64,000 nt of DNA from NCBI GenBank assembly GCA_902599575.1, contig CACKFS010000002.1:1-64000 (forward strand), written 5' to 3'. The stretch comes from an uncultured Pelagibacteraceae bacterium (GTDB lineage Bacteria; Pseudomonadota; Alphaproteobacteria; Pelagibacterales; Pelagibacteraceae). A program made the translations under genes and the position numbers. Below the pieces are notes generated by a model, which had not been told where the DNA came from, ran no database searches, and worked only from the letters and a program-made list of their open reading frames with translations. Below, piece after piece: positions 18,757-51,004 of this stretch (its first letter is position 1; every line of letters begins with the position of its first letter).

Positions 18757-18832
18757 TGGTGCCCCTTGCCCGACTTGCACGGACGGCTTTTTCCTTACCA
18801 TGGAAATACTCTACTACCTGAGTTAAAGGGGC
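18757..18832 (-). tRNA. tRNA-Thr (anticodon GGU)
   Basis: GCCCCTT TA ACTC AGGTAGTA GAGT A TTTCC ATGGTAA GGAAA AAGCC GTCCG TGCAAGT CGGGC AAGGGGC A CCA; full cloverleaf, encoded CCA. Confidence 0.93.
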
Positions 18833-19131: not shown

Positions 19132-19242
19132 ATGAATAACAAAAGAAAGCCCTCAAAGCTTGATCTTGAAAGGGCTTTACGTCAAAACTTAAGAAAAAGA
19201 AAAATTTTTAAAAAACCAAAAAAAAAAAATGATACTAAATGA
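19132..19242 (+). CDS. Very small basic protein (36 aa)
   Basis: MNNKRKPSKLDLERALRQNLRKRKIFKKPKKKNDTK; stop overlaps the dcd start by 14 nt. Confidence 0.5.
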   Translation: MNNKRKPSKLDLERALRQNLRKRKIFKKPKKKNDTK

Positions 19243-19780
19243 TAAACAAATAAAAAAGTTATCAGAGGAGGAAGAAATGATAACACCTTTCGTCTCAGAA
19301 AGTATATCAAAAGGTATAAGTCACGGACTTAACTCTTTTGGTTACGATTTAAGATGTGGCTCAGAATTTAAAATATTTACAAATATAAAAGGTGCTACAG
19401 CTGACCCAAAAAATTTCAGTGAGGATAATTTCGTGACAGTTAAAGGTGAAGAGTTCATATTAATACCTCCAAATTCATTTGCATTAGCGAGTAGTTTAGA
19501 ATATTTTAAGATGCCAAGAAATGTTACAGGACTTGTTACAGCTAAATCTACTTATGCAAGATGCGGATTGGGTACCCCTCCAACAGTTTTAGAAGCCGGA
19601 TGGCATGGAAATTTAGTTTTAGAGTTTTCTAATCACACAAGTAATTCCATAAAACTTTATGCCAATAGTGGAGCTGCACAGATATTATTTTTTAAAGGAG
19701 ATCACCCGGAGGTTTCTTACTCAGATAGAAAAGGTAAGTATCAAGGTCAAGTTGGAATTACGCTAGCAAAATCAAAATAA
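19229..19780 (+). CDS. dcd: dCTP deaminase
   Basis: LNSFGYDLRCG, TAKSTYARCGL, GWHGNLVLEFSN. Confidence 0.94.
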   Translation: MILNDKQIKKLSEEEEMITPFVSESISKGISHGLNSFGYDLRCGSEFKIFTNIKGATADPKNFSEDNFVTVKGEEFILIPPNSFALASSLEYFKMPRNVTGLVTAKSTYARCGLGTPPTVLEAGWHGNLVLEFSNHTSNSIKLYANSGAAQILFFKGDHPEVSYSDRKGKYQGQVGITLAKSK

Positions 19781-21049
19781 ATGAAAAGATTTTTAATAAA
19801 TGGCCCTAATAAAGGAGTTAAGGGTGAAATTAACGTAAGTGGTGCTAAAAATTCTTGTTTACCTTTAATGGCAGCTTCAATTTTGTTTAAGAAAAAGGTT
19901 ATTTTAAGAAATGCACCTTTTGTTAAGGATGTTTTGACCATGAAAGATTTGCTTATATCTTTAGGTTCAAAAGTCGAGCTCATAAAAGAAAAAAAAATTA
20001 TTAAAATAACAAATAATAAAAAACATAAATTAATTGTTCCATACAACTTAGTTTCAACTATGAGAGCGGGCGTTTTAACAATGGGACCTTTATTAGCTAG
20101 ATATCCAAAAAGTAAAATTAGAGTAGCTTTAGGTGGAGGTTGTGCTTTGGGTGTTAGAGACACTTCTTGGCATCTTTCAGGATTTAAAAGTCTTGGTGCA
20201 GATAATACTCTTAACAAAGGTTATGTGAACATTTACTCAAAAAACGGTTTAAAAGGAAAAATTTTTAAATTTCCAAAAGTTACTGTTACAGGAAGTTCAA
20301 ATTTGATTATGGCATCAGTGCTTATAAATGGAGAACATATAATCAAAAATATTTCAATAGAACCTGAAGTTAAAGATTTGATTAAATTTTTAAATAATTC
20401 CGGGGCACAAATAAAGTTTATAGGAAAAAGATCTATAAAAATTCAAGGGGTTAATGAACTTGTAAATGGCGATCATACTATTATTGGAGATAGGATTGAA
20501 GCTTTTAGTTACTTATGTGTTGCAGCGATAACGAATGGGAAAGTAAAGGTAAAAAAAATTGATCCCAGACACTTAAATACAGAATTAAGAATATTAAAAA
20601 AAATTGGATACAAAATAGAAATTAATTACAATTCAATCATGATTTCACCAGGTAAAAAAACAAAACCTGTATCAATTAAAACTGGTCCTTGGCCACAATT
20701 TGCCACCGACAACATGCCAATTATTCTTGCTGTTTTAACAAAGGTTTCTGGAAAAAGTGTAATTGAAGAGACAATATTCTCAAATAGATTTATGGCAGTT
20801 CCAGAGTTAAAAAGAATGGGCGCAAAAATATCGATAAAGAAAAATAAGGCATTTATTTTTGGACAAAAAAAATTAAATGCTGCAGATTGTATTTCATCAG
20901 ATTTAAGAACTACATTTTCAATAATTTTAGGAGCAATATCGGCCGAGGGATCCTCTACAATATCTAGGATTTATCATGGTTTAAGAGGTTATGAAAACTT
21001 ACAAATCAAGCTCAAAAAATTAGGTATTAAAATTAAATTAAAAAAATAA
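19781..21049 (+). CDS. murA: UDP-N-acetylglucosamine 1-carboxyvinyltransferase
   Basis: KGEINVSGAKNSCLPLMAASIL; MRAGVLTMGPLLAR. Confidence 0.95.
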   Translation: MKRFLINGPNKGVKGEINVSGAKNSCLPLMAASILFKKKVILRNAPFVKDVLTMKDLLISLGSKVELIKEKKIIKITNNKKHKLIVPYNLVSTMRAGVLTMGPLLARYPKSKIRVALGGGCALGVRDTSWHLSGFKSLGADNTLNKGYVNIYSKNGLKGKIFKFPKVTVTGSSNLIMASVLINGEHIIKNISIEPEVKDLIKFLNNSGAQIKFIGKRSIKIQGVNELVNGDHTIIGDRIEAFSYLCVAAITNGKVKVKKIDPRHLNTELRILKKIGYKIEINYNSIMISPGKKTKPVSIKTGPWPQFATDNMPIILAVLTKVSGKSVIEETIFSNRFMAVPELKRMGAKISIKKNKAFIFGQKKLNAADCISSDLRTTFSIILGAISAEGSSTISRIYHGLRGYENLQIKLKKLGIKIKLKK

Positions 21050-21450
21050 TGTCCAAAAAATATTTAGCTAAAATTTTAGCAAGAGATTTGAATGGATTAA
21101 ACCTAATTTCTTTATATTGTCATAAATCAATTTTAAAAATATCAGATATTAAATTTCTAAAAGAAAATAAGATTTTTCTACTATCTCTACAAAGAAACTC
21201 AATTAAAATAAAAAATAAAAATAAAGTATTGAGCATATGTAAATTCGAATTTATTGATCAAGCTAAGTCAAAAAATATAAATCAATATTCATTAAAAAAA
21301 GATTTATCACTTCTTGCTATAGATACTATTAAAACAAAAAAAGGCTTCGAATTTAATTTGTTATTTTCTAATAATGGCTTTATAACGTTATCCTCAGAAA
21401 TTATAGAAGTTACACTTGAGGATTTAAAGGAAATTAAAAATGATTTATAG
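21049..21450 (+). CDS. DUF2948 family protein
   Basis: Pattern and conserved position between murA and hisD. Confidence 0.75.
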   Translation: MSKKYLAKILARDLNGLNLISLYCHKSILKISDIKFLKENKIFLLSLQRNSIKIKNKNKVLSICKFEFIDQAKSKNINQYSLKKDLSLLAIDTIKTKKGFEFNLLFSNNGFITLSSEIIEVTLEDLKEIKNDL

Positions 21451-22720
21451 ATTAAATGCAAATAGTAAAAATTTTCAAAGGGATCTAATAAAAAAGGTAA
21501 ATAAGAGGTCAGTTTTTTCTGACAGGGATTATAATATTGCAAAAAAAATCGTTTTAGATGTAAAAAGAAATGGGGATAAAGCAGTACTTAAATATGAAAA
21601 AAAATTCAATAAAAATAAGAAGCTTAAGTCAAGCTACGAAAATATAATTAGAAATATTAAAAGATTAAATCCAAAAGTTAAAAAATCTATAGATTTCGCA
21701 TTCCAGAGAATTTTATCATTTCATAAAAATCAAAAGTCGAAAGATATTAAATTTTCAGATAGTTTGAATAATAAAATTGATTACAAGTACAAACCTTTGA
21801 ATTCAGTTGGGATTTATATACCCGGTGGCAATGCAAGTTTTCCATCTACAGTTTTAATGAACGCAATTCCTGCTATGCTTGCAGGTGTCAAAAGAATTGT
21901 TATTGCAAATCCTGTAAGAGATAAAGATCAAAGTGCTGCTGTTTTATACGCAGCTAAAAAATGTGGTGTAAGAGAAATTTATAGAATAGGTGGAGCACAA
22001 GCAATAGCTGCACTTACTTATGGAACTAAAACAATTAAACGAGTAGATAAAATAGTTGGACCTGGAAATATTTACGTTGCAGCAGCGAAAAAAATAGTTT
22101 TTGGTGAAGTTGGTATCGATATGATTGCCGGCCCATCAGAAATAACTGTCGTCGCAGATAAAAGCTCAAATATAAAATGGGTTGCAGCAGATTTAATTGG
22201 TCAAGCAGAACATGATATTAATGCTCAATGTATCCTTATCTCAAAAAATAAAGAACTAATTGATAAAGTTCAAAAGGAATTAAAAATACAGTTGCAAAGT
22301 TTACCACGTAAAAAAATTGCATCAGGAAGTTTAAAAAAAAATGGTTTATTAATTTTTGCAAATTCGGATAAAAAAATTTCTGATATTATTAACATTATAG
22401 CGCCAGAACATTTAGAACTTAGTTTGGACAAATATAAATCTATTTTAAAAAATGTAAAAAATGCGGGTTCGATATGCACTGGAAAATATTCAGCAATGGC
22501 TGTAACGGATTATTGTGCGGGTAGTAATCACACTTTACCAACTCACTCTTCTGCAAAATTTTTCAGCGGACTGTCTGTTTTCGATTTTTTTAAAAGAATT
22601 TCTTATATAAATTTATCAAAAAAGGGTATTGAAACTATTGGTGAAAAAGTTATAAATCTTGCAACTTATGAAGGTTTAGATGGACACGCTAGATCAGTTA
22701 AATTAAGAATAGGAGAATAA
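21440..22720 (+). CDS. hisD: Histidinol dehydrogenase
   Basis: GIYIPGGNASFPSTVLMNAIPA; HTLPT. Confidence 0.96.
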   Translation: MIYRLNANSKNFQRDLIKKVNKRSVFSDRDYNIAKKIVLDVKRNGDKAVLKYEKKFNKNKKLKSSYENIIRNIKRLNPKVKKSIDFAFQRILSFHKNQKSKDIKFSDSLNNKIDYKYKPLNSVGIYIPGGNASFPSTVLMNAIPAMLAGVKRIVIANPVRDKDQSAAVLYAAKKCGVREIYRIGGAQAIAALTYGTKTIKRVDKIVGPGNIYVAAAKKIVFGEVGIDMIAGPSEITVVADKSSNIKWVAADLIGQAEHDINAQCILISKNKELIDKVQKELKIQLQSLPRKKIASGSLKKNGLLIFANSDKKISDIINIIAPEHLELSLDKYKSILKNVKNAGSICTGKYSAMAVTDYCAGSNHTLPTHSSAKFFSGLSVFDFFKRISYINLSKKGIETIGEKVINLATYEGLDGHARSVKLRIGE

Positions 22721-22940: not shown

Positions 22941-23015
22941 GGCCTTGTAGCTCAGTAGTAGAGCAGTACCCTGAAAAGGTATGTGTCGTAAGTGCGATTC
23001 TTACCAAGGCCACCA
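22941..23015 (+). tRNA. tRNA-Phe (anticodon GAA)
   Basis: GGCCTTG TA GCTC AGTAGTA GAGC A GTACC CTGAAAA GGTAT GTGTC GTAAG TGCGATT CTTAC CAAGGCC A CCA. Confidence 0.94.
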
Positions 23016-23566: not shown

Positions 23567-23643
23567 GCACGGGTAGCTCAGTTGGTTAGAGCAGCGGTTT
23601 GTGGAACCGAAGGTCGACAGTTCGAATCTGTCCCCGTGTACCA
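23567..23643 (+). tRNA. tRNA-His (anticodon GUG)
   Basis: GCACGGG TA GCTC AGTTGGTTA GAGC ... TTGTGGA ... GACAG TTCGAAT CTGTC CCCGTGT A CCA. Confidence 0.94.
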
Positions 23644-49184: not shown

Positions 49185-49233
49185 TTAAAAACTTTTGTTG
49201 TAGACTAGAAAATATAACTGTTATAATAAACTT

Positions 49234-49319
49234 GGGGCCATCCAGGTGGTATTACCATAAACTCCCCCAGGCTTGAAAAAGAGCAAGGGTAATGAGTATT
49301 TTCCAGGTTGGCTGGTCCC
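49234..49319 (+). ncRNA. ffs: Small bacterial SRP RNA (4.5S)
   Basis: GGGGCCATCCAGG...CCCCCAGGCTTGAAAAAGAGCAAGGGTA...CCAGGTTGGCTGGTCCC: helix 8 with GNRA (GAAA) loop, closing 5'/3' stem, upstream of dnaX. Confidence 0.88.
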
Positions 49320-49324
49320 TAAAA

Positions 49325-51004
49325 ATGAGCATTAATAAAAAAGTACTAGCAATAAAATATCGACCTCAATTTTTTGATGAATTGGTTGGTCAAAAAATAA
49401 TTGTACAAGCCATTAAAAAGTCAATCGAATTAAATAAAATCCCTAATGCATTTTTATTTACAGGGATAAGAGGTGTTGGAAAAACTACAATAGCCAGAAT
49501 TTTAGCTAAGTCACTTAATTGTTTAAATTTAAACAAAGAAAATTGCGTCAATAACCAGTGTGATAATTGTAAGCAGATATCAGATTCTAGGCATATAGAT
49601 GTTCTTGAAATAGATGCGGCTAGCAAAACAGGTGTCGACGATGTTAGAGATTTGATCGAATTTTCAAGATATGGGCCCACATCATCAAAATATAAAATAT
49701 TTATAATTGACGAGGTTCACATGCTAAGCAAGCAAGCTTTTAATGCGTTACTAAAAACACTCGAGGAACCACCAGAATATTTGAAATTCATTTTTGCAAC
49801 AACAGAAGTAAATAAAATACCAATAACTGTACTATCAAGATGTCAAAGATTTGACCTAATGAGAATTAGTTATGATGAACTATTAATTTTTTTAAAGAGA
49901 GTGATCTCGATGGAAGAAAAAGTTTTAGATGAGGATATATTAAAATTAATAGTTAAAATATCTGAAGGTTCTGTTAGAGATGCGCTTTCTTTATTAGATA
50001 GATTACTACTTAGTGATAATGAAAATAATAAAAAATTAGATCTGGAGTCTGCGCAAGAAATATTTGGCTATTTTGACAAAAGTTACATTTTAGATCTAAT
50101 AACTGAATTATTGAAGGGCAATGAGAATAAAGTTCTAGAGTTTTATAAAAATATTTATAATCAGGGAGTAGAACCAAAATTATTCATAAATAATTTTCTA
50201 GAAATTATTTATTACTTAAAAAATCACAATAGTATAAACAGTTTAAGTTCATCAATAGAGTTTACAGAAACAGATTTCAAAAGAATTAAAAACTTAGCAA
50301 GCAAAATTGATAGTAAAACAATTTTATTATTTTGGGAATTTTCTGTAAATATTTTAAAAGAAATAAGTTTAGTTGCTAATCAACATTTAGCAGTAGAAAT
50401 GTTTTTGATTAGATTAATGTATTTAAAAAGAAAAACACCTGGAGAAATAGATACATTTGAAGACTTAAGTAACATAGGTTTTAGTGAAAAAGATGATTTA
50501 AAAAATGACGACTATACAAAAAAAAAAGAAAAGGATCTAAATAATAACAAAACAATAAATCAAATTAAATTTTCTTCACAGGAACAACAAAAAATTTCTC
50601 CAGAAAATGAAAAGATTTCTAATAAATCAAAAATAAACTCTTTCTCCGAACTAATATCAATGTGCATTTTAAAAAAAGAAATCAATTTAAAATATGAATT
50701 AGAAAATAATGTTAATTTGATTAGCTTTAAGAATAATAACATTGAAATCTCTTTCAATGAAAATCTTGATAAGGATTTTATTAAAAATTTGACTTCCAAA
50801 TTATTGGATTGGACAGGTGAAAGATGGATTATTTTGCTATCAAAAAAAATTGGATCAAAAACCATGAAAGAAATTCAGAATCAAGATAAAAAAAATAAAT
50901 TGGAGAATATAAAAAATTCGAATACATATAAAAAAGCAAAAGATCTATTCCCAGACTTAGAAATAATTAATATAAAAAATCTAGAGGAGGACTCTAATGA
51001 ATGA
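49325..51004 (+). CDS. dnaX: DNA polymerase III subunit gamma/tau
   Basis: YRPQFFDELVGQ, GVGKTTIARILAK; ORF track start 49292 lies inside the SRP RNA. Confidence 0.95.
   Translation: MSINKKVLAIKYRPQFFDELVGQKIIVQAIKKSIELNKIPNAFLFTGIRGVGKTTIARILAKSLNCLNLNKENCVNNQCDNCKQISDSRHIDVLEIDAASKTGVDDVRDLIEFSRYGPTSSKYKIFIIDEVHMLSKQAFNALLKTLEEPPEYLKFIFATTEVNKIPITVLSRCQRFDLMRISYDELLIFLKRVISMEEKVLDEDILKLIVKISEGSVRDALSLLDRLLLSDNENNKKLDLESAQEIFGYFDKSYILDLITELLKGNENKVLEFYKNIYNQGVEPKLFINNFLEIIYYLKNHNSINSLSSSIEFTETDFKRIKNLASKIDSKTILLFWEFSVNILKEISLVANQHLAVEMFLIRLMYLKRKTPGEIDTFEDLSNIGFSEKDDLKNDDYTKKKEKDLNNNKTINQIKFSSQEQQKISPENEKISNKSKINSFSELISMCILKKEINLKYELENNVNLISFKNNNIEISFNENLDKDFIKNLTSKLLDWTGERWIILLSKKIGSKTMKEIQNQDKKNKLENIKNSNTYKKAKDLFPDLEIINIKNLEEDSNE

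Follow-up and report, generated by a model that had tools for sequence, protein, structure and literature searches.

Can a tRNA that carries A at position 18 and G at position 55 still build its elbow and serve translation? A tRNA-Thr(GGU) gene raises this question in a window of 64,000 nucleotides of DNA from an uncultured Pelagibacteraceae (SAR11) bacterium, the window being the whole stretch that was analysed. In the known elbow, purine 18 slots between residues 57 and 58 and contacts residue 55, and pseudouridine at position 55 (Psi55) is called universal in reviews of this structure (PMC4810234, PMC7912444). G18 is likewise described as a universal tRNA residue. A role of the 18-55 pair in translocation has been reported (Pan 2006, cited in PMC4810234), and TruB, which acts on U55, recognises U54, C56 and A58 (PMC6850298). 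Judging from the genes, we put a probability of about 0.83 on the reading that the A18/G55 genes described here encode working translational tRNAs, in which A18-G55 would form an alternative pair between the D loop and the T loop.

The Thr(GGU) gene lies at 18757..18832 on the minus strand, encodes its CCA end and was recognised by ARAGORN and by the Rfam model RF00005 (53 bits, the lowest score among the 15 tRNAs of its genome). Its letters are GCCCCTT TA ACTC AGGTAGTA GAGT A TTTCC ATGGTAA GGAAA AAGCC GTCCG TGCAAGT CGGGC AAGGGGC A CCA. The D loop, AGGUAGUA, aligns as A14 G15 G16 U17 A18 G19 U20 A21, and the T loop UGCAAGU contains U54 G55 C56 A57 A58. Counted down from 18832, A18 and G19 fall at 18814..18815 (-), and gene letters 54-56 (U54 G55 C56) at 18777..18779 (-); where the canonical test expects G18 and U55, the residues are A18 and G55. 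An explicit pair check found standard pairs throughout all stems, with one U-G in the T stem, and the other tertiary partners U8-A14, G15-C48, G19-C56 and U54-A58 intact. Because an independent Pelagibacteraceae record (L172) carries an identical gene, and G093, G154 and G078 carry nearly identical copies, the Thr gene is not a sequencing error. In relatives it is kept at the same locus, where stem changes are compensated so that the stems covary. The earlier note on this DNA had read G55 in the T loop and A18 in the D loop, and the position count verifies both letters; its opinion that intact stems speak against a pseudogene is borne out by the pairing of all stems and by the same gene in other genomes. 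It located the gene rightly without stating the minus strand, and it handled a genuine A18/G55 elbow as one odd gene, overlooking a tRNA-Phe only 4 kb away.

ARAGORN found three tRNAs in the window. Besides Thr(GGU), these are tRNA-Phe(GAA) at 22941..23015 (+), which is also A18/G55 (D loop AGUAGUA, T loop UGCGAUU), and tRNA-His(GUG) at 23567..23643 (+), a canonical G18/U55 gene that serves as an internal control. Between the Thr and Phe genes, at 19229..22720 (+), lie open reading frames which, from general knowledge of these proteins, we take to be dcd, murA and hisD, together with a small ORF ahead of hisD; their synteny is conserved in relatives, and the dcd-murA-hisD order served to locate orthologous tRNAs and to build a tree. 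A small SRP RNA (RF00169, 44 bits) is located at 49230-49327 (+). In the genome to which the window belongs, which is 53% complete, 15 tRNAs were found, 12 of them G18/U55, three A18/G55 and none mixed. The A18/G55 trio consists of Thr-GGU, Phe-GAA, the sole tRNA for Phe detected in this incomplete genome, and Val-GAC, which lies elsewhere in the genome, outside the window. A Thr(UGU) tRNA is present too, and it could act as a backup for Thr(GGU) in translation. The Val(GAC) gene (L001:1375-1449) combines A18/G55 with A54/U58 replacing U54/A58, and the same combination (T loop AGCGUAA/AGCGUUA) was seen in L288 and other viral loci, in tRNA-Ile, Trp, Asn, Gly and Phe.

Positions 18 and 55 change together across the family. 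At 57 SAR11 loci, nearly all chosen by a match to a Phe pattern that leaves 18 and 55 both free, tRNA-Phe is A18/G55 in 32 cases, G18/U55 in 25 and mixed in none; the tRNA-Ile(GAU) rows returned by a pattern of this free kind were all G18/U55. In a HisD, MurA and Dcd tree covering 56 genomes, at least five changes of state are needed for Phe, and Thr(GGU) needs at least ten among four elbow types, in a scoring where the parser assumes G19, true 19-56 variants (the Thr genes of G051, G148 and G109) are mis-scored, and some register-shifted tRNAs are excluded by the quality filter. The earlier note had suggested a compensatory substitution from the change at both partners; the Phe counts and repeated switches strongly support this, and A18 and G55 do co-occur across SAR11.

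The A18/G55 Phe genes of SAR11 fall into at least two separate backbones, with the anticodon stem GAGCC or GUACC. The GAGCC type shares its anticodon stem with local G18/U55 Phe genes. The GUACC-type gene is identical across several SAR11 genera, and part of the pattern is therefore transfer rather than new mutation; in some SAR11 switches the tRNA or the locus looks to have been transferred. Thr(GGU) varies in other ways as well. The genes of G051, G148 and G109 (L510, L530, L540) join a D loop UAGUGUUA or UAAUGUUA to the T loop UUAGAUU, and U19-A56 appears to stand in place of G19-C56 as another matched elbow change. A large SAR11 Thr(GGU) group (L507, L511, L512 and others; G035, G140, G017 and others) has the T loop GUCAGUA, with G54 and G58 instead of U54-A58.

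A wider sample of about 2,060 tRNAs unselected for the trait, mostly from phage contigs, comprised 1898 G18/U55, 89 A18/G55, 7 A18/U55 and 0 G18/G55. For phage contigs fetched by a Phe pattern neutral at 18 and 55, the corresponding numbers of distinct tRNAs were 1172, 22, 3 and 0. By these counts the A18/G55 of the Thr gene is no chance combination. The Fisher p values of 6e-44 (neutral sample) and 3e-147 (pooled set) are not to be taken literally, the sequences being related, and the empty G18/G55 cell is striking despite this non-independence. When 2.9 million viral contigs were scanned directly at the DNA level for G18/G55, six raw matches came up, none of which passed the tRNA filter; by eye, two or three of them (L393, L394, L397) are tRNA-like, and G18/G55 may not be strictly forbidden. 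The viral scan for A18/G55 returned at least 120 stretches, with 106 tRNAs in those loci confirmed by ARAGORN, and that for A18/U55 returned 65. Within the collected loci, Phe tRNAs with A18/G55 tend to have A57 (50:21 versus 40:77). One viral contig, L062 (IMGVR_UViG_3300032397_000008), has A18/G55 in 13 of its 14 tRNAs, and mixed sets occur in other viral contigs.

Cellular genomes carry the same letters. A GTDB genome scan whose pattern was built to pass over the SAR11 genes for Phe and Val returned at least 112 A18/G55 stretches. The matches listed include Pelagibacteraceae, Omnitrophota, Elusimicrobia, Patescibacteria, Mycoplasmataceae/Ureaplasma, some archaea and others, and among them Phe and Thr predominate (57 Phe, 33 Thr-GGU, 12 Thr-CGU). 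In 387 sampled alphaproteobacterial genomes, only three pattern matches lay outside the family, none of them tRNA-like by eye. Altogether A18/G55 was seen with about 45 anticodons, the majority in viral contigs. As far as gene sequences can tell, A18/G55 recurs as a natural solution, with Phe and Thr as its hot spots.

We propose that A18 pairs with G55 where G18 would pair with U55 (normally Psi55), and that G19-C56 is retained. Purine 18 would remain sandwiched, with the U54-A58 pair on one side and purine 57 on the other, and A18 opposite G55 plausibly meets the same arrangement as the canonical elbow, in a hydrogen-bonded geometry that we infer. The two positions would change jointly because G18 with G55 is hardly tolerated, and the likelier stepping stone between the states would be the rare A18/U55 rather than G18/G55, since the viral scans gave 65 stretches of the former and six raw matches of the latter. 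Compared with the canonical elbow (PMC4810234, PMC7912444), the cloverleaf, G19-C56, U54-A58, purine 57, G15-C48 and U8-A14 are retained, whereas A18/G55 takes the place of G18 and U55/Psi55, with no pseudouridine possible at 55. TruB cannot form Psi55 in these tRNAs because residue 55 is G.

The distribution of TruB within SAR11 is sharply divided. TruB_N was found in 10/10 genomes of genera g5, g9 and g12 and in 0/58 of g1, g2, g3, g4 and g10, the latter group including seven single-contig g1 genomes; the window's genome (53% complete) and the 39 other g1 genomes yielded no TruB. The loss of truB from its operon is a clean deletion, with rbfA directly followed by rpsO in G078, G003 and G004 and truB sitting between them in G005 and G009 (genes named by sequence recognition and by TruB and RbfA models). 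The rbfA-rpsO loci lack truB in g1 and g4 (L563, L564, L566) and contain it in g5 and g9 (L569, L570). Psi55 may be wholly absent from the truB-less g1 and g4 cells, though most of their tRNAs keep U55.

This loss could itself be the cause of the switch: without Psi55, the advantage of G18-U55 would vanish, elbow changes would become neutral or favoured, and A18/G55 would be a consequence of streamlining. The split between genera and the clean deletion are in line with such a cause, as is the finding that all SAR11 A18/G55 Phe and Thr genes sit in truB-less genera (g14 is outside the truB test), but the tree holds one loss and hence a single event within SAR11, and most tRNAs of truB-less SAR11 are still G18/U55. 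Other lineages are divided. Among genomes of other lineages with A18/G55, whose completeness is not given, TruB is absent from most Patescibacteria and from 4/5 Mycoplasmataceae/Ureaplasma, yet nearly every Omnitrophota genome and every Elusimicrobia genome tested has it, and the truB-bearing SAR11 genera g9 and g12 have A18/G55 in His and Val, respectively. We consider a causal role rather unlikely and truB loss at most permissive. The earlier note's pointer to truB was apt in that the clade to which the window's genus belongs has lost the gene; as a requirement for A18/G55 the loss is rejected, TruB coexisting with this elbow in Omnitrophota, Elusimicrobia and SAR11 g9/g12. With truB gone in the window's SAR11 clade, the switch would cost no modification, which probably eased the Phe and Thr changes. 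The A18/G55 tRNA-His genes of G022 and G009 (L554, L555), from a truB-bearing genus, have the D loop AGUUAGUUA and the T loop UGCAACU.

A further possibility is that A18/G55 genes, common in phages and mobile arrays, displaced the native SAR11 tRNAs. Such an origin is improbable. Viral contigs do carry A18/G55 tRNAs of many isotypes, and identical Phe tRNAs occur in different SAR11 genera, but the Thr and Phe neighbours dcd, murA and hisD are the same in A18/G55 and G18/U55 genomes, and one A18/G55 Phe type still has the anticodon stem seen in the local G18/U55 Phe. Among GenBank phage tRNAs, the nearest have U55, not G55, and on this ground a phage donor of the SAR11 genes was rejected.

In one Planctomycetota MAG (G548), some 25 tRNAs are packed into an extra array of about 4 kb on contig C67 (JAHBXY010000159.1; L601, L176), with UGC in the T loop of nearly all tRNAs and A18/G55 wherever the D loop is readable. 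The 31 tRNAs read outside the array are all without G55, 26 of them clearly G18/U55, and TruB_N was not found in this MAG. It might be mobile, or else an artefact of binning. This array and the viral contig L062 make it conceivable, at similarly long odds to a phage origin, that A18/G55 marks a distinct tRNA class taken up as a whole set by some mobile or phage-borne arrays, perhaps to evade enzymes or defences by which the host recognises the standard elbow, with SAR11 then en route to the same state.

For the reading as working translational tRNAs, the complete, single-contig SAR11 genome G078 provides the evidence on Phe. Of its 32 tRNAs, 31 were read, and they include one Phe, which is A18/G55; the unread tRNA has a match 83 bases long, a size that fits a tRNA with a long variable arm, and is therefore not Phe. 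The sole Phe tRNA of this genome must therefore decode all Phe codons and works in translation, which rules out a pseudogene or a non-ribosomal role for it, and we infer that it functions normally on the ribosome. A specialised task outside the ribosome has a model in the staphylococcal cell-wall tRNA-Gly, which is non-ribosomal, has GUGC within its T loop and shares G55 and the letters U54 G55 C56 with the SAR11 genes, and the Thr(UGU) backup beside Thr(GGU) would suit it. However, the D-loop change of that tRNA-Gly is unlike the SAR11 one, the SAR11 A18/G55 Phe is not dispensable for translation, and the elbow recurs in some 45 anticodons; a role of this kind is highly improbable. A pseudogene or sequencing error, for which the low RF00005 score would speak, can be dismissed in view of the intact stems and tertiary contacts, the covarying Thr stems and the same or near-same genes in independent genomes.

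The pairing rule itself appears to be already known from selection experiments. Doyon, Zagryadskaya, Chen and Steinberg are said to have described, in J Mol Biol in 2004, a 'specific purine trap' in suppressor tRNAs selected in E. coli, in which purine 18 is reportedly G with U55 and A with G55, U54-A58 and purine 57 being kept. The Thr and Phe letters A18, G55, U54-A58 and purine 57, and the covariation, fit this reported rule, and A18 and G55 would pair accordingly; SAR11 Val(GAC), with A54/U58, falls outside it. The selection there was artificial, whereas the elbow described here is natural, recurrent, spread over many isotypes and phyla and present in an essential single-copy tRNA. A deviation from the standard D-T contact is also seen in those metazoan mitochondrial tRNAs that have no elbow (PMC4810234), but there the elbow is lost, whereas in SAR11 it is retained with a matched substitute. 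In the open-access literature, with subscription papers mostly outside this scope, we came across no account of naturally occurring A18/G55 tRNAs, how widely they are spread or how they relate to truB, and Amrine 2014, on SAR11 tRNA signatures, makes no mention of A18, G55, the T-loop, the D-loop or the elbow. We regard the natural occurrence of A18/G55, its breadth, its covariation and its link to truB loss as new, a claim that is solid but not certain.

For annotation, caution is advisable, as models give A18/G55 tRNAs low scores and searches for a TTC motif overlook them. The SAR11 genomes offer natural paired comparisons, with the same isotype and synteny, two elbow states, and truB present or absent, which are usable for the role of the 18-55 contact and of Psi55 in translocation, folding and the order of modification. 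On the reading preferred here, nature has a second way of building the 'universal' tRNA elbow, with a matched A18–G55 for G18–U55. An abundant ocean lineage would then be translating with tRNAs in which U55 is missing, among them the one Phe tRNA of a complete genome, and one of its clades would also be doing so without the enzyme that makes Psi55.
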